From contig CM007991.1 in NCBI GenBank assembly GCA_002189035.1, positions 124,001 through 188,000 on the forward strand: a stretch of 64,000 nucleotides of DNA, in the 5' to 3' direction. This document shows positions 3,001 to 31,642 of this stretch, in pieces. Position 1 is the stretch's first letter. Every line of letters begins with the position of its first letter. The stretch is from Utricularia gibba (Eukaryota > Streptophyta > Magnoliopsida > Lamiales > Lentibulariaceae). Under the pieces are notes generated by a model that had not been told where the DNA came from, made no database searches, and worked only from the letters and a program-made list of their open reading frames with translations. The position numbers were made by a program, and so were the translations under genes.

Positions 3001-6000
3001 CTGTATGATGACTGTAGCTCATTCGTTGAACCTTTAGTTTGTCTCTTTCACTTAAACGGCTTCTTTTTAATCCGCAGCCAAATACTGATCCAAGGATCCC
3101 GGCGCCTACCATAGGAAAGGCTCTGTTGAGAATGAGAGGAATGTTCACAGAGGAGTACATGTATTGGGTTTGTGTTGCAGCATTGTTTGCATTCTCTCTT
3201 GTCTTCAACATTGGCTTTATCGTCGCATTGACATACCTGAATCGTAAGTTTTCTGTTGAGTTCATGTCGTTTTTTTTTTCTCTAAACTCCCTTTGGTCAC
3301 ACTCCGTACATAAATTGTGTAGCTTTTGTGAGTACAAAATCCACTCTCGTGGAAAACGAAGGCATGTTTGAAAAGAAAATCGTCGTGCCTGGTCCTGCTG
3401 AAATAGTAAACTGCAAAGTCTGCACAGTTGAAGGTATGAGAGCAGTCGAAAGATCCCCAAATGCTTCAAAAATTGTATTTTAATGGTATACATTTTGCAG
3501 ATGAGAAAATGTTTCGTTGTACAAAGAAAGGAATGGTGCTTCCATTCACTCCCCTGTCCTTGGCGTTTAACCACATCAGTTACTATGTCGATATGCCAGC
3601 TGTAAGTGATGTTCAAAATATTCATTCTTCATGGATGAACCATCTACTGACAATATTACATGCTTGGTTCTCCATCTACAGGAGATGAAGAAGAAAGGGA
3701 TACAAGAGAATAGGCTGCAGTTATTGCGAGATGTGAGTGGAGTATTCAAACCTGGAATTCTAACATCTTTGGTAGGTGTGAGTGGGGCTGGAAAAACTAC
3801 GTTGATGGACGTCTTGGCTGGAAGAAAAACAGGTGGATACATCGAAGGCAGCATAAGCATATCTGGTTTTCCAAAGAATCAAAGAACCTTTGCTCGTATC
3901 AGTGGATACTGTGAGCAGACGGATATTCACTCTCCACATGTTACAGTCTATGAGTCAATTGTATACTCTGCTTGGTTGCGACTTTCACCTGAAATAAACC
4001 AGGAATCAAGAAAGGTAAGTGCTGTTGTACATTAAGAGATAGTTTGCGTTGCTCACTTAATGAAATTTGTTAATGTTTTGAAGATGTTCGTGGAAGAAGT
4101 GATGGAGTTGATTGAGCTCCAGCCATTGAGGGAATCCCTGGTTGGGCTGCCTGGGGTAAATGGTCTGTCAGTTGAACAGAGAAAGAGATTAACCATAGCA
4201 GTAGAGCTTGTTGCCAATCCTTCCATAATCTTTATGGATGAACCCACATCAGGCCTTGATGCTAGAGCTGCTGCAATTGTCATGCGAACAGTTCGCAATA
4301 CAGTTGACACAGGCCGAACTGTCGTCTGCACAATTCACCAACCAAGCATAGACATATTTGAAGCATTCGATGAGGTAATTTTCTGAATTTCCCATCCCTT
4401 AATGTGGACTGATGTCGATACTGATTGCCACCAAACTGCAGCTTTTACTCTTGAAAAGAGGGGGACAAGTTATCTATGCAGGACCTCTAGGGCATCATTC
4501 TCACCAGCTGATAGATTACTTTCAAGTGAGTACTTGATGTTGAAATAAAAAATAAGTTGGTTTTATACTAGTAGCGAGTAAAGTACTAAAATCACTTGCA
4601 TTCATCACGCAGTCAGTGACAGGGATTCCAAAGATCGAAAAAGACACCAATCCTTCTACATGGATGCTCGATATCAGTACACCAGCATTGGAAGAACAAC
4701 TTGGCATTGATTATGCAGAAATTTATGCAAACTCTGATCTTTACAGGTGATAAGACGATACCAACTATTTCTCAAAACCTTTCCTCTCGTGTCTAATTTA
4801 ACCCGTGTTGTGCCTGGATTCGTGCTATCAAACAGGAAGAACCAAGAGCTCATCAAGCAGCTCAGCACTCCTGCAATAGGGTCAGAAGATCTTCATTTTC
4901 CAACTAAACATGCACAATCCTTCCTCTCTCAATGCAGAGCTTGCTTCTGGAAACAAAACTTGTCATACTGGAGAAACCCACAATACAATGTGGTGCGTTT
5001 CTTCTTGACAACAATAATTGGTTTCGTTTTCGGAGTGACATTCTGGAAAAGGGCAGACAAGATGTAAGTCACAAAATCACTTCTTTCCGTCATAATATTA
5101 ACTTGGCTTCTCTTAACAGTAACTGATTCGACAGACATAAGCTACAAGATCTGACGAACATAATTGGAGCCATGTATGCAGCAGTTAATTTCCTAGGGGG
5201 CATGAACACTTATGCTGTGCAATCAGTAGTGGAAATCGAAAGAACTGCTTTTTACCGTGAAAAAGCTTCTGGGATGTACTCAGCTCTGCCATATGCATTT
5301 GCTCAGGTACAGAAGGAAAAAGATCACCTTTTTTTTTTCTATCTTCCCCTGATTCAAGATGCTTGACATAGCTGATAAATCACACCTCACAGGTTGCCAT
5401 CGAGACGGTTTACACAGCAATGCAAACACTCATCTACAGCCTCCTCCTTTACACCATGATGGGATTCGATGTCCGTGTTGATAAATTCTTCAACTTCTAC
5501 TTCTACGTTTTCATGTGCTTCCTATATTTCACTGCGTACGGAATGATGTTAGTAGCCCTGACCCCAAATTGCCACATTGCTGCTGTGGTGATGACATTCA
5601 TTCTCAGCTTTTGGAATCTCTTCTCCGGGTTCCTCATTCCAAGAACAGTAAGTAAAACAAACAAAACAAAAAAGCAACCTCTCAATTTCATGTTTCAACA
5701 ATGCCAACTCACTTTTACATTACTGAAACTTGCAGCAAATACCCAAATGGTGGAGGTGGTATTATTGGGCCAATCCAGCTTCATGGACAATCTACGGCTT
5801 GATCACATCTCAAATAGGCGATAGTAGAGGTACAATTGAAGTTCCTGGCTATGGTGATGTATCATTGAAGGATCTCCTCCATTACTACATGGGATTTGAT
5901 TACAACTTCTTGGGAGTTGTTGCGGTTGCTCACGTTGCATGGGCTGCCTTCTTTTGCGTCGTCTTCGCTCTTGGCATCAAGTACCTCATCTTCCAGAGGA

Positions 6001-6005: not shown

Positions 6006-7083
6006 GGATTTGTAAATGTTAGAAAATCAGAACCCTAATTCGACGGTTGTTATGTAAATTGGGGGTCGAGGTGAGCCAGCTGGAGTTTTTGTGTTGGCCC
6101 CAAGAGTTTCTGTAATTGTAGTGCTGTATCCCTCTTTTTTCAACGGCTAGTAATTGAATTCTTCCAAGGCGTAGCTGGGCCGCATTACAGGCGATAACAA
6201 CTGATTTTCCCCATTTCTCTGCGTCTAGGGTTTGTCTATCGTCATCCCTTCCTTCCCGTAAATCTCTACGTTTCCTGTTTCACTTATCCAAATCGGTTGA
6301 TTCTTTAGTGACAGTTTCCTCCTATGTTTATACGACGTTTCAGGGATTCTGCGGGGGTTGACTGCTGGGGGTAAAGGAGACGAAAAGCCGATCCAAGTGT
6401 CACTTAACTGTGAGTTCAATCTGAGGAACCCCCTTTTGTTGCGTGGTTGGTTTGTATCGTTCTGTGTTCTTGTCAACTGATTTATGTGTGTTGCGTATGC
6501 GCAATTTGGTGCCGAGAAGAAAAAATTTCGAGTTTTAGACGTATTGTCCTATCATGGGGCTGCTTTGGATCCTGGGAAAGGGTTGAATTATAAGGGGTTT
6601 AAATATTCGCGATAAAGATTGTATTTTTAACATTTGGTGTTCCTGGGGATAATTTTTGGTATTGATTGAATGGAGACCTTTGTGTATAGCTTGCTTGCCT
6701 TTTCATTTGTTAAGTTGCTACCATTGAGACGTTTAACACGAAAGATGTTTCAGGTATATTGACTGGGAGGTGTCTGGTTGTTGAGTTCATTCCCAGATAA
6801 AAAGGTTTTCTTTTTGTTCATGGCTTTATCTTGCGTGATATCTCTTCAGCATTTCATGAAGACAGCAAATCATATTCATTTGAACTTTATGGTGTACTTC
6901 AAATACTACATCTTGGTTTTGTTATTTCATTACCAAACATGGATATATTGATCATAAGCCCAGTTGTGCCATTTGTTCTCTAAATATTTGTCGTTGTAAA
7001 AAATTCTTGGATTTGAGTAGAATGCGAACAGTTTGTGGTTATTCAAAGGGGATTTTGTCCATTTATTTTAGAAACAGTACAAA
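6006..7083 (+). other. ABCG 3' UTR followed by promoter, leader and leader intron of the A20/AN1 gene
   Basis: No coding exon is seen. The first 150 bases are probably the 3' UTR of the transporter. From about 6190 the sequence looks like a plant 5' leader (pyrimidine-rich, CTAGGGTTTG), followed by T-rich DNA. A good 3' splice site, TTTATTTTAG, ends at about 7071, just before the ATG at 7084. A leader intron is common in A20/AN1 genes. The leader start was not fixed from sequence. Confidence 0.45.
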
Positions 7084-7615
7084 ATGGAACAAAATGAGAC
7101 CGGCTGCGAAGCTCCTCAGGCCCCTATCCTCTGTGGACCTCAACAATTGTGGATTCTTCGGAACAGCAGCCACCATGAACATGTGCTCCAAATGTTACAA
7201 AGACCTTGCATTAAAGCAAGAGCAAGTCAAGCTTGCCGCATCATCCATCCAGAGCATTGTGAACGGGACTTCCAGTACATCTGAAACGGATTCTGATGTA
7301 CCTACAATGACTAAAGCCAGGCAGAGTGTGATTATCAACACGGCTGTAGCATCATCACCACAAGCTTCTGCTGCAGTCCCACCTCAGGAAGCTAAAGAGC
7401 CTAAAGAAGGCCCAAAGAGGTGTGGCTCTTGCAGAAAACGTGTAGGTCTCACCGGCTTCAACTGCCGCTGTGGTGGCATCTTCTGCTACATTCATCGCTA
7501 CTCTGACAAGCATGAATGCCCCTTCGATTATCGCTCTGCAGGCCAGGAAGCCATTGCCAAGGCCAACCCGGTGGTCAAGGCCGACAAGCTAGACAAGATT
7601 TGTCCCACGCTCTGA
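7084..7615 (+). CDS. A20/AN1 zinc-finger stress-associated protein (SAP), reading frame broken in the A20 finger
   Basis: SAP proteins bind ubiquitin through A20 and AN1 zinc fingers and act in abiotic-stress responses. The ATG at 7084 gives [17 protein letters not shown], which matches the family N-terminus up to the first A20 cysteine. The rest of A20 ([15 protein letters not shown], then SKC) and the whole AN1 finger ([27 protein letters not shown]) are read in another frame, which is open from about 7007 to the stop at 7613-7615. The switch falls at about 7131-7143. Homologues have one residue between the first Cys and NNC; here seven bases sit there instead of three. Either there is a small insertion (net +1) that truncates the A20 product, or the base sequence is wrong. 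Without the break the protein would be about 176 residues, normal for the family, with an intronless coding region. Confidence 0.85.
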
Positions 7616-7997: not shown

Positions 7998-10900
7998 CTA
8001 CCGGAAACTTCGCCGGAGAACATCCACCAACAGCACTCCGTCGCTGGGTGCTTGGCCAGTTTTCCAGACAGTAAAACCTGCCTTGAAGAAATTATTGTCA
8101 TTCCATCGCTTCAATGCCTGCAGCGAAAAAGGGCCGTGCATCTTCCCTCGGGGATCCACATAGTGCCAATCAGCAATGTTTGTAGGTTCAGCATTTCCTT
8201 CTGGCTCTGACTCATCCTCATCGCTGCTGAGTTCAATAATCTCATCAGTAGCCACAGCTTTTACCCGAAATTCCTGTGCTGGCGGTGGCATGGATGATTT
8301 TTGGATCTTCGGGCTGTCACTTAATGTTGAACACCCTGTGTCCATTACCCTTTCCTTCTCTGTGGTACTTGTATATACTGAAACAGAATCATGCATATCC
8401 ATTCCTGCCTCCTTTTCTTCACAATTCCTATCTTCAATACCAAAAGAAAAATTTCTCTTGCCTCCCAGCTTCTCTGGGTAACTCATCTCGCTTGAAATGT
8501 TTTCTTCCAATGGTGATGGCATGTATGCCTCTGTCGTCTCTTTTCCAGCATTGATGGGATCATGCATATGTCCATTATTCTCATGGGGCAGGACATCAGC
8601 TATATTAACCAAATGAGCACGTCCATCAACTGCGAGCATACAAGTAGTATAAGGATCAGCTTTTGTTTCCACCTTCAATTCATACTTGAGTTCAAAATGA
8701 AGACAAAATTCATGAATTCTAGAGGCTTACCACTTGGACTTTTAACAGTAGCGAAGCCATCGGTGCTCATGACCGAAGTTTGCTGGTTATCAGAACAGTG
8801 CGACTGGGAAAGGGATGGGAGATTGACGAAACCTGAGAAGAAGTGTGACGAAGTTGACAAGGTGTAATGGATATTCAAGCAACAATCTTACATACTAGTT
8901 ATAGTGGTTTAGGAAAATGTACCTGAATCACCTGAGGAGCATGCATCTGCATCAAACAGACAATTTGATTCTGATATTTGAGCCCTTGCCTCGGCCGTAC
9001 TAGAAGCATCTCTCTCTTCAGCAATCACATCGGGAATGCTAGGTAACAATTTCTCTTGAGTCTGAAGCATCTTCCTTTGATCCAGATACTCAAATAGTGT
9101 GAATTCTAAAAGGTTAAGGCAACGTTATAGCACAATGAAAAGCAACAAACATGATGATGACACAATGCAGAAAGAAAGAATTGTTCGATCCTTCTCCAGG
9201 GGGTTCTGTGACTAGGAACAGCACGTAGCATATATAGACGCTAACTGATTGACACCCTCAACTAGGAACACCCATATGCTTGCCATAGAAATAATTTTCC
9301 CATGTAACTTAAGGATATTCTCTTCGCCATCCCTTTTCATTTGCATGATTAATTTTCTTCTGCAACACGGACAGCTCCTTAGCAATCCGCTGCGATCAAA
9401 TGGTGATGGTTATAGGACGCTGCTATACCAAGCAAACAAGATACGACTGACTACATGCAGAAAGAATGTTCATGATTTGAGATTTCCAAAGCTGATTTTG
9501 GCACATTCAAATGACAAGGCATACTCCTGTTAATTTTTCACCAGAGTATATCCAGTCTCACCAAATAATGAAAAAAAAATTCACGACATACATGTTTTGT
9601 TATATCCTCATGCAGCAATTGTGCCTTCAACTCGATCTCCTTCTGTCAAATAATGATTCACAAGTTTAAAATGGGTAACCGAAATAGGAAAATGGCATCA
9701 TTATCTACGGGCCTGATATTTATTACATAACACTCAAAGAGAACAATATGCGAGTTTGCCTTCCTGCTAGTAAAGGAATGGCGATTTAACTCGAGCTATA
9801 AGCCTTAGGAAGAGATAACAACTTGTAAGAATTTCCTTTGGGGCACTTCATAAAAATTTAATTTCCATCGGTTCGATGGAACTTCTAAAGATAATGTATT
9901 TTGAGGCATATGGCAGCTAATGATGACCCTATTCAAAGCATGTTTTCTTAAAGTGGTCATAGACCTTGATATCAAGCAGTCAGGAGGAAAAGTTCAGCTG
10001 TATATGAATCTTACAACACTGAACTTTTTAAGCACGCCACATATTACTCTTTTATGCACATCCTCAACTTCTTCCTACAAAATGAATACAGCATAAATGC
10101 CGTGGGTTAGAGTCTAAACAAATCTCAGCATTAGATGAATCAAATATGAAGTGCCATTAAGAACTAAAAATTAACTAAGTTGAGAAACAGTTTCTATGGT
10201 GGTAGAAATCAGAGAGAACACAAGTCATCGGAAAAAAATTCAAAAGAGAAAGTAAATTCATAGTCAATGAAATATTTGAGAGTTCGTATGACTAGTTACC
10301 TCTAAGAAGTCTTCGTCTGACAACATGGATAAAGTAACTTCGTTAAGAAAATTTGCAACTTTCAGATGGATTTCAGCATTAGGACTAACAGCAAGGGAAA
10401 AGTTTTCAACACCTGCCAAATAAATGATAACGCAAATACATATGAAGAGAAGAGCAACAATCACAATCATGCAATGTAGCCCATTCGACATACAAGATCA
10501 AATACAACACGTAAATTCTCTCTAGTTAGCCAAATTACCAGTAACAAGTTGAAGATGAAACAAAGGCGTCTGAAAATTATCATTTGTGTTGGATTTCATC
10601 CTGACAAAGCTCCCAACAATTTTTTTCTCAAAGCTTGTTCGATCATGAAGAAGCTCCATAATCAAACTTTTCTTCAAGTATATTAGCTTGATATTCCTGG
10701 GAACAATTGCAGCAAAGAAACTTCGATGTGACTTCACGCCCATGGTTGTGAAAGCCTTTTTTCTTTTGTCTTTTTCTTCTGAACTGTCAAGAGATTCGTC
10801 ATCAGACTCATCACTTTCTTCACAAAGGTGCTCCTCAAGCAACTCATGAATCTTTTTCGTAGAAATGGACTTCTTCCCAAAAAGAGAAAAAAGTCTCTCA

Positions 10901-12467: not shown

Positions 12468-13577
12468 TTAGCAGGCTTTCAACGGCGCACCGCAGAGGCA
12501 ATCGTTGCTTGCGAAGGACGACGGTCCCAGCCGGTCGAACGGCGATACCCTTGGAATGGGGCCGCAGAGATGGTTATGGCTCAGATCCATGTGTCCGATG
12601 TACCGTGCCGCCGACAGCGACCGAGGAATCGCGCCTTGTAAGTTGTTATGCGATAAATCGATGACGGTGAAGTATGTTTTGGGACCGAATACGTCTGGCA
12701 GGTGTCCTTCGAAGGAGTTCCGGCTTAAGTTGAGGATATTGATGCCGGAATTGGAGAATAATCCGGTGGGGATTTCGCCTGAGAGGTGGTTACTGTCGAG
12801 GTTTAGCGTTGAGAGGACGGGCATTGATCCGAATTGCGACGGAATGGGGCCGGAGAGAAGGTTCAATGACAGATCTACGTCGGCGAGGCGGTAGATCGAG
12901 GCGAGGGAGGAAGGGATGTGACCGGTGAGTTGGTTACGGTGGAGGAGGAATCGGCTCATCATTGTTAATTTTCCAATGTCGGATGGGATTTCACCGGTGA
13001 GGTGGTTGTTACTGAGTTCTAAGTGCATGAGGCTGTTGAGATTCACGATTGAGGGAGGAATCGTGCCCGAGATTTGGTTATCGGCGAGATTCAGCACAGT
13101 GAGGCGGCTGAGTTTGCCGATGTCGGCTGGGATTTTACCGGATATTTTGTTCCCGATCAAATCGAGAATCCTCAGGCGAGGCAGCGTGGTAATGCACTCC
13201 GGGATCTCGCCGGAAATCGCCTTCCAGTCTGCGATAACCAGCGTCGTGAGACGCTCGAGACCGCATACCGCCGGTGAAATCGAACCGGTCATGTAACCCG
13301 TACGGCCGGCGCGTTCGAAAATCTTATCCTCCGATTCCCCCCGTAGAACCACATCGGCAACCCGTTTCGTTTCCGGGTCGCAGCTGACGCCGTGCCAGTT
13401 GGTGCAGCATTCTTCTCCCTTCCAAGTGTCGAAAATCCCGAGGTAAGGTTCGTTGAGCGCCGCTCGGAAAGAGAGAAGCGCCGCCCTGTCAGACGGCTGG
13501 CAAGCCATCGCCGTCGTGGCGAAAAGCAAACCGACAGCGAACGCGGCGGCGCACAGGAAGTTACCGTTGGGCTGCAT
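12468..13577 (-). CDS. DRT100: Secreted leucine-rich repeat protein, DRT100-like
   Basis: A single exon of 369 residues, close to the 370 or so usual for DRT100 proteins. The ATG at 13577 begins MQPNGNFLC; upstream codons in the same frame lack family similarity. It has a signal peptide (residues about 4-27, ending ATTAMA), an LRR N-terminal cap with paired cysteines (DTWKGEECCTNWHGVSCD), about nine plant-type 24-residue LRRs (LxxNxxSGxIPxxIGKL) and a C-terminal cap ending CLCGAPLKAC. There is no membrane anchor or kinase, so it is probably an apoplastic or cell-wall LRR protein. The name comes from an Arabidopsis cDNA isolated by complementing DNA-repair defects in E. coli; that function fits poorly with a secreted LRR protein. 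Confidence 0.93.
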   Translation of the reverse strand: MQPNGNFLCAAAFAVGLLFATTAMACQPSDRAALLSFRAALNEPYLGIFDTWKGEECCTNWHGVSCDPETKRVADVVLRGESEDKIFERAGRTGYMTGSISPAVCGLERLTTLVIADWKAISGEIPECITTLPRLRILDLIGNKISGKIPADIGKLSRLTVLNLADNQISGTIPPSIVNLNSLMHLELSNNHLTGEIPSDIGKLTMMSRFLLHRNQLTGHIPSSLASIYRLADVDLSLNLLSGPIPSQFGSMPVLSTLNLDSNHLSGEIPTGLFSNSGINILNLSRNSFEGHLPDVFGPKTYFTVIDLSHNNLQGAIPRSLSAARYIGHMDLSHNHLCGPIPRVSPFDRLGPSSFASNDCLCGAPLKAC

Positions 13578-29073: not shown

Positions 29074-31642
29074 ATGAGCGCAGATCTGGTGGCTTCGAGC
29101 GCCCATGGGAGCCTGGATGAGCAGATTGCGCAGCTCATGCAGTGCAAGCCCTTGTCCGAGCCTGAGGTTGCGAAATTTTAGTTTTTGATGTCAGTGTTTC
29201 TGTTGTTCTCATGATTTCAACGGATGGGACGCTATTTCTGTTAGATCTAGGGATTGGGTGACCCTATCCTGGCTTCGATTTAACTTTTATGGAGTTTCGG
29301 TTGATTTGGGCGATTTTAGATATTGGTTTCGAATTCGAAATATTAGTTCTTGATGATGTTCTACGGATTTCTTTTGCGTTCTTGGGAGGTAGTCGTCGTG
29401 TTTATTTTTAACAAGTGAAAGGGTTATATTTTTCTATTGAGTGAATTGTAAAAAAAAAGTACGAAGTAATCCCTCTTATGGACCACCCGTGAGAAGTGCG
29501 TGATTGGTTTTTCCTAGAAAATTGCAAGAAAGGAAGTGTGCCGTTCTTAGAGGCGATTTACGATAATCTGTCATGGTTTAAATTTGATAATTAAACGATG
29601 CAACGCTCATGTGTGAATATTGATCATCTTGCAAGCATAGGTGCGGGCCTTGTGTGAGAAGGCAAAGGAGATACTAAAGGAGGAGAGTAATGTTCAGGTA
29701 TGAATTCGTTGTTTCTCTCAGATAATTCGTGAGGAGGGGGAGGAGATACATGCCGTTACTTCTAGTTGTTCATTTGGATGCTTTTCAGTGAGTTTTTTTT
29801 TCTTCTTTTTCTTCTTATTATGGGGATCCTATATTAAGCATTTTCTTGTCATGTGCAGCCTGTGAAAAGCCCAGTGACAATTTGTGGTGATATTCATGGC
29901 CAATTTCACGATCTTGCTGAACTTTTTCGCATTGGAGGGAAGGTAAAATATTAGCCGTGTGTGATAACAGCCTGTGCAGTTTTTTGTTTGATTTTACATC
30001 ATCGTGGCGTCTTGGCTAGCTATAATTGAATGACTCATGTCCAGCTGTTGTGATATTGACAGTGCCCGGATACTAACTACCTGTTCATGGGTGATTATGT
30101 TGATCGTGGCTACTATTCAGTTGAAACTGTTACGGTAAGAGATGACTCGTGAATTTTTAGCTGTTCCATGTACCCCTCTTCTTTTGATACCCGCTCGTTA
30201 ATTCTGATGAACTGCCTTTTTTGCAGCTTTTAGTTGCCTTAAAAGTACGGTATTCACAGAGGATCACTATTCTTAGAGGCAATCATGAGAGTAGACAGGT
30301 GTTGATGACACTGAGGAGACCTTTTCTGTTCCATTTGCATTTTATTATTATGCACTCTGTCAAGCGCTTTCTGGACTGATCGTATTTCTTTATTTTTCAG
30401 ATAACGCAAGTTTATGGGTTCTATGATGAATGCCTGCGGAAGTGAGTTGCTCCTATCATTCACCTGATAATCATTCGGCTCTTTATCCAGTGACATTTTT
30501 TGAATTTGGGGCAGTGTCACTGGGTAAATGATATGTTTTATATTAGAACATACTTTGTCTTTCTTATTGCTTCTGTTTGTTTCGAGTGTTGGGTGTTGTT
30601 ATTTGTTAAGATTGTCATCGTTCTTCCTACAGAATTTGGAAAGTAGTTTGTTATGTGTTTAGACTCAACTGCCCTTTGCCATGTTTTCTGTAGTTGTCAG
30701 TCCTGAATACTGATACGTTTCCGAACATATGGCAGGTATGGAAATGCGAATGTCTGGAAAATATTCACCGATCTCTTTGACTATTTTCCCTTGACCGCAT
30801 TGGTTAGTTGAAGTTTTCAATTTGGTGTTTACGCGTATATTGTTTTCCTGCTTGGTAACACTTTGTGTTCGGCTTCCATGTCCCTTGACACATAGCGCTT
30901 TTACTTCATGTAGGTAGAATCAGAAATATTTTGTCTCCACGGTGGATTGTCTCCCTCTGTTGAAACCCTTGATAATATAAGAAACTTTGATCGAGTACAA
31001 GAAGTCCCTCATGAAGGCCCAATGTGTGATTTACTATGGTCAGATCCGGATGATCGTTGTGGTTGGGGCATTTCACCTCGTGGTGCTGGATACACATTTG
31101 GCCAGGTACCTCTTCACTCAATTGTACTAGCTTTTTCCATTCTTCCTCGCAGGTTACTTCTCCATCTGCATAACTTTCCTATTACCTCCCAGGATATATC
31201 TGAGCAATTCAATCACACCAACAACTTGAAACTGATTGCTAGAGCTCATCAGCTGGTTATGGAAGGATACAACTGGGCCCATGTATTGTCATCACTGTTC
31301 CTGTCTTTAATACATCTCATCTTATACCGTTTGCCATCCACAGTAGCACAATGTCAATTATGATCGTTTTTGACGAATGCAGGAGCAAAAGGTTGTCACC
31401 ATCTTCAGTGCCCCAAATTATTGCTATCGTTGTGGGAACATGGCGTCAATCCTCGAGGTAGATGACTGTGGAGACCACACCTTTATTCAGGTAGTCATTC
31501 TATCACATCTCCCTCTACCTTACATGCAATGCCGTATAACTTGAATTCTTTGCCATTTTTATTTGCATCAATGCAGTTTGAGCCAGCCCCAAGAAGGGGA
31601 GAACCAGATGTGACTCGAAGGACACCCGATTACTTCCTTTAG
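29074..31642 (+). CDS. PP2AC: Protein phosphatase 2A catalytic subunit (PP2A-3/4 type)
   Basis: Catalytic subunit of the heterotrimeric Ser/Thr phosphatase PP2A. Eleven exons: 29074-29166, 29641-29697, 29859-29942, 30063-30134, 30227-30298, 30401-30441, 30736-30802, 30914-31105, 31193-31282, 31383-31490, 31577-31642; 313 residues, the normal length, all phases closed. Metal-binding and catalytic blocks are intact: [49 protein letters not shown] and [11 protein letters not shown]. The C-terminus TPDYFL carries the leucine that is carboxymethylated. [20 protein letters not shown] and [20 protein letters not shown] place it with the Arabidopsis PP2A-3/PP2A-4 group rather than PP2A-1/2/5. Confidence 0.97.

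Follow-up and report, generated by a model that had tools for sequence, protein, structure and literature searches.

How is the fifth intron of a SWIB–Plus-3–GYF gene in Utricularia gibba removed, given that it is the exception in a gene where 6 of the 7 introns carry GT-AG ends? The window, that is, the whole stretch of DNA that we analyzed, comprises 64,000 nt of assembly GCA_002189035.1 (contig CM007991.1, positions 124,001-188,000 of the forward strand). Within it the gene occupies positions 11154-7998 of the minus strand, and joining its 8 coding exons yields one open frame of 606 aa that closes with a TAG stop (Table 1). Pfam placed SWIB (residues 37-110), Plus-3 (154-252) and GYF (551-589) above cut-offs and in that order, and the best solved match of the GYF part was 1wh2, named At5g08430, in agreement with the gene identity proposed in an earlier reading made from the letters of the DNA (hereafter the sequence-only reading). 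Compared with 1v32, SWIB was identical at 35/89 positions in the window gene and at 36/89 in a paralogue described below, L019; the two being equally close, we take the window gene as a member of the AT5G08430 family and as a possible one-to-one orthologue of AT5G08430. On either side of the gene the window holds other readable genes. An A20/AN1 zinc-finger (stress-associated protein) reading frame at 7007-7615 on the plus strand converges on the SWIB gene, with ~380 bases from one stop codon to the other, and a single-exon gene for a leucine-rich-repeat protein lies upstream at 12468-13577 on the minus strand.

Table 1. Coding exons and intron 5 of the window gene, with the signals of that intron, in window positions, and the homologous introns of the four paralogues in positions of their own loci.
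Feature	Position	Strand	Length	Remarks
Exon 1	11154-10539	-		coding
Exon 2	10412-10300	-		coding
Exon 3	10074-10015	-		coding
Exon 4	9642-9592	-		coding
Exon 5	9389-9319	-		…HANEKGWRR; phase 2 end (GA), with a homologous end in each of the four paralogues
Intron 5, AT-AC, predicted U12-type	9318-9099	-	220 nt	flanking exon bases 9319 and 9098
U12-type 5' splice site ATATCCTT	9318-9311	-		same in all five family members
In-frame TAA on intron retention	9311-9309	-		GAA TAT CCT TAA
U12-type branch site CCTTAAC	9119-9113	-		branch A probably at 9114; UAAGG in the genome's U12 snRNA pairs with CCTTA
AC 3' splice site	9100-9099	-		continues the protein frame
Exon 6	9098-8923	-		…LFEYLDQRKMLQ…; homologous exon start in paralogues
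Exon 7	8832-8731	-		coding
Exon 8	8629-7998	-		coding, TAG stop included
L019 AT-AC intron	3337-3469 (locus)		133 nt	U12-type, homologous codon
L020 AT-AC intron	3912-3479 (locus)	-	434 nt	U12-type, homologous codon
L021 AT-AC intron	3307-3530 (locus)		224 nt	U12-type, homologous codon
L022 AT-AC intron	3404-3590 (locus)		187 nt	U12-type, homologous codon

Exploring the intron boundaries on the minus strand, we found the junction context …TGG CGA AGA GA/ATATCCTTAAG…TTGCCTTAACCTTTTAGAATTCAC/A CTA TTT GAG TAT CTG…, so written that the slashes separate exon from intron. The intron starts with ATATCCTT, an 8/8 match to the U12-type donor, and closes with TTGCCTTAACCTTTTAGAATTCAC, its last bases before the junction being …CCTTTTAGAATTCAC. 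The branch region TGCCTTAAC differs from the consensus TTCCTTAAC by one mismatch, a G directly before CCTTAAC, which counts against a U12 reading; it lies inside the expected distance of ~10-20 nt from the acceptor. The intron's final base lies 15 nt beyond the branch A. The donor, the CCTTAAC branch site and the AC acceptor 15 bases further on, all named in the sequence-only reading, were thus found as described, as was the truncation that it foresaw at an in-frame TAA, which is met in frame on read-through. The predicted joint of exon 5 and exon 6 (9319/9098) reads …TGGCGAAGAGA/ACTATTTGAG…. Plant U12-type AT-AC introns share with intron 5 the donor ATATCCTT, the CCTTAAC branch site, the short distance from branch to acceptor and the AC end, and we noted no difference in the intron itself. 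The very small share that the sequence-only reading assigned to AT-AC introns in plants corresponds to a published figure of about 0.092%, from a study in which 64 AT-AC sites of A. thaliana were analyzed (PMC7072748).

To see how far this junction is forced, we enumerated, over the interval from the first base of exon 5 to the last base of exon 6, every GT-AG, GC-AG, AT-AC and AT-AG pairing spanning 60 nt or more whose product stays in the downstream frame and contains no stop. The WRRELFEYL reading was kept by 2 of these 112 pairings, 9318/9099 with the U12 signals and 9316/9097, and by none of the GT-AG, GC-AG or AT-AG pairings among them. The latter pairing is an AT-AC junction shifted by 2 nt that encodes the same residues but lacks the ATATCC of a U12 donor. 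The earlier claim that a single splice restores WRREL/FEYL therefore stands among junctions with a U12 donor and falls for junctions at large, as the shifted one gives the same protein; the two registers differ in the spliced junction, …GAACTATTT or …GAATTATTT. It is very improbable that this shifted pairing is used, identical though its protein is, or that intron 5 is an AT-AC intron of the major spliceosome. Introns of the latter type are known from animal sodium-channel genes (PMC2831892), but these have G at position +5, where intron 5 has C within the full ATATCCTT, and intron 5 carries a U12 branch site at the expected distance. A further acceptor, a TAG 7 nt upstream (ending at 9106), was ruled out with the same donor because the frame shifts.

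The enumeration also bears on the explanation that a U2-type GT-AG (or GC-AG) intron is used and that the AT-AC match is coincidental. Between exon 5 and exon 6 there are 16 stop-free GT-AG pairings that keep the frame, so such an intron can be drawn; yet all of their donors lie inside exon 5, at GTCCGTGT, GTGTTGCA or GTTGCAGA, which are unlike plant U2 donors, and every one of the pairings deletes the conserved ANEKGWRRE. Furthermore, four paralogues preserve ATATCCTT at the equivalent codon. We hold this explanation to be highly unlikely. Under a first-order model, ATATCCTT is expected by chance at ~2e-5 per position. The window contains 7 RTATCCTT donors, 2 of which (intron 5 and a donor at 31270) are followed by CCTTRAY and an acceptor in range. 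The plus strand at ~31000-31270 reads as an exon of a PP2A-type phosphatase, with the U12-like donor GTATCCTT antisense to it, and the pairing of donor 31270 with ~29058 (GT-AG) was taken as a chance match, antisense to the PP2A-like coding region. For intron 5, the recurrence of the motif at the equivalent codon of four paralogues practically excludes a chance match.

These paralogues were found by searching the assembly around the window (100 Mb, 516 contigs) with the window protein, which revealed four further family genes, L019, L020, L021 and L022, and thus five members with the window gene. L019 lies on the same contig as the window gene, about 1 Mb away, and L021 and L022 are recent duplicates of one another. 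By Pfam, each of the four has SWIB and Plus-3, and L020 and L022 also have GYF; a GYF match in L021 came from protein comparison. In L020, GYF is followed by glycine-tryptophan-rich sequence and a CCCH-like C-terminal end, which makes it NERD-like by inspection. Pfam detected no GYF in L019. The reading of L019 (1699-3551) comprises SWIB and Plus-3, and its frame soon hits a stop beyond the AT-AC intron; the gene is either a GYF-less form or decaying. A GYF-less form has reportedly been described for ZMP in rosids.

Each of the four paralogues has ATATCCTT…CCTTAA(C/T)…AC, with codon and phase matching those of intron 5 in the window gene: the counterpart of exon 5 ends in GA, ATATCCTT comes next, and beyond the AC the following exon takes up the reading in an unchanged phase. 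The second A of their CCTTAAC or CCTTAAT lies 11-13 nt before the last intron base, compared with 15 in the window gene. Retention of the intron soon leads to a stop in 5/5 family members. The interiors of the five introns show no similarity at E <0.01, save for L021 against L022. That only the splice signals and the codon position are kept is the pattern expected of selection for U12 splicing. Given that L019, with no GYF detected, still has the intron, the intron is not kept merely for the sake of a downstream GYF half. The fit of donor, branch site and acceptor, together with the same motif in four paralogues, supports at the sequence level the U12-type AT-AC class that the sequence-only reading had assigned.

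Searching the genome for the minor-spliceosome machinery, we found genes over the Rfam cut-offs for U12 (86 bits), U6atac (87 bits) and U11 (74 bits). Because the snRNA duplex program chose a non-canonical register for U12, pairing with the window intron was counted directly, giving contiguous pairings of 6 for U11, 5 for U6atac and 5 for U12. For U4atac, an Rfam search of the assembly, run without a positive control, was negative, as was one pattern guessed from complementarity; this result is not informative on absence, and the missing U4atac is probably due to the limits of the search and not to a real loss. DIM1-family loci are present, one of them with the residues LLPTLREKRQVDSLIKDTIDKVLVLRFGR…CLQLDD and …VVFFFNAHHMKMDSG, which read as those of the TXNL4B/DROL1 kind. 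A homologue of CCDC84/CENATAC was found in the genome as well. DROL1 and CENATAC have been reported to be specific for AT-AC or AT-AN introns (PMC11039992).

Together, the data indicate that intron 5 is almost certainly a genuine U12-type AT-AC intron that the plant gene family inherited from its common ancestor, given that the full 8-exon frame with its conserved residues closes at this junction, that donor, branch site and spacing fit and the signals are shared by 4/4 paralogues, and that genes for U11, U12, U6atac, a TXNL4B-like protein and CCDC84/CENATAC are present. Following established minor splicing, U11 and then U6atac would pair with ATATCCTT, U12 would pair with CCTTAAC and bulge the branch A at 9114, and the U4atac/U6atac.U5 tri-snRNP, with the DROL1/TXNL4B-like and CENATAC factors, would splice exon 5 onto exon 6, with the AC as acceptor. 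Correct splicing would connect the SWIB–Plus-3 half to the GYF half. Upon retention, the protein would stop two residues past the junction (…WRREYP and stop, 306 aa), leaving SWIB–Plus-3 without GYF; alternatively, the transcript may be decayed. This premature stop would lie upstream of two further introns. That RNA is spliced at this junction, and what becomes of retained transcripts, we infer from the genomic sequence.

Arabidopsis NERD and ZMP act in small-RNA/DNA-methylation pathways, ZMP with Pol IV and NERD with AGO2. As described in passages of PMC9699677, the ZMP/NERD-like family combines SWIB and Plus-3 with or without GYF, PHD and CCCH, has a common ancestor in land plants and has roles in methylation; the window gene and its paralogues are of that kind. 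The word-matched passages of that paper on domains and methylation make no mention of minor introns. Land-plant minor introns have been reported to be stable (PMC10639083). Intron 4 of plant CBP20 (PMC5932401) likewise stands alone as a U12 intron among U2 introns, at a conserved position, and separates two functional parts of the protein; it belongs to another gene, however, and intron 5 is shown here to be common to paralogues in one genome, not across species. A word search of the literature returned nothing that links AT5G08430 with introns or locus tags of the family with U12 introns, and the Arabidopsis counterparts of the intron may well be in intron databases already.

As a kind, the AT-AC intron is already known; the present analysis contributes that each of the five family members found in this genome has it. 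The proteins of the family have diverged down to roughly 30-40% identity while the AT-AC intron was kept, and with five such genes the family is a clear example of an intron subtype being strongly retained. Mutants in AT-AC splicing, such as drol1, would be predicted to retain the intron throughout the family at once. Gene finders restricted to GT-AG introns would mis-annotate all five genes at the position of intron 5. By default, the sharing of the intron is explained by simple inheritance rather than by coordinated control. It is possible, though we consider it unlikely, that this chromatin-protein family is collectively under minor-spliceosome control, by way of the AT-AC intron that every member keeps at a single codon, between its Plus-3 and C-terminal parts. 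If so, the efficiency of AT-AC splicing (DROL1, CENATAC) would set the level of all members together, or that of their truncated SWIB–Plus-3-only form.
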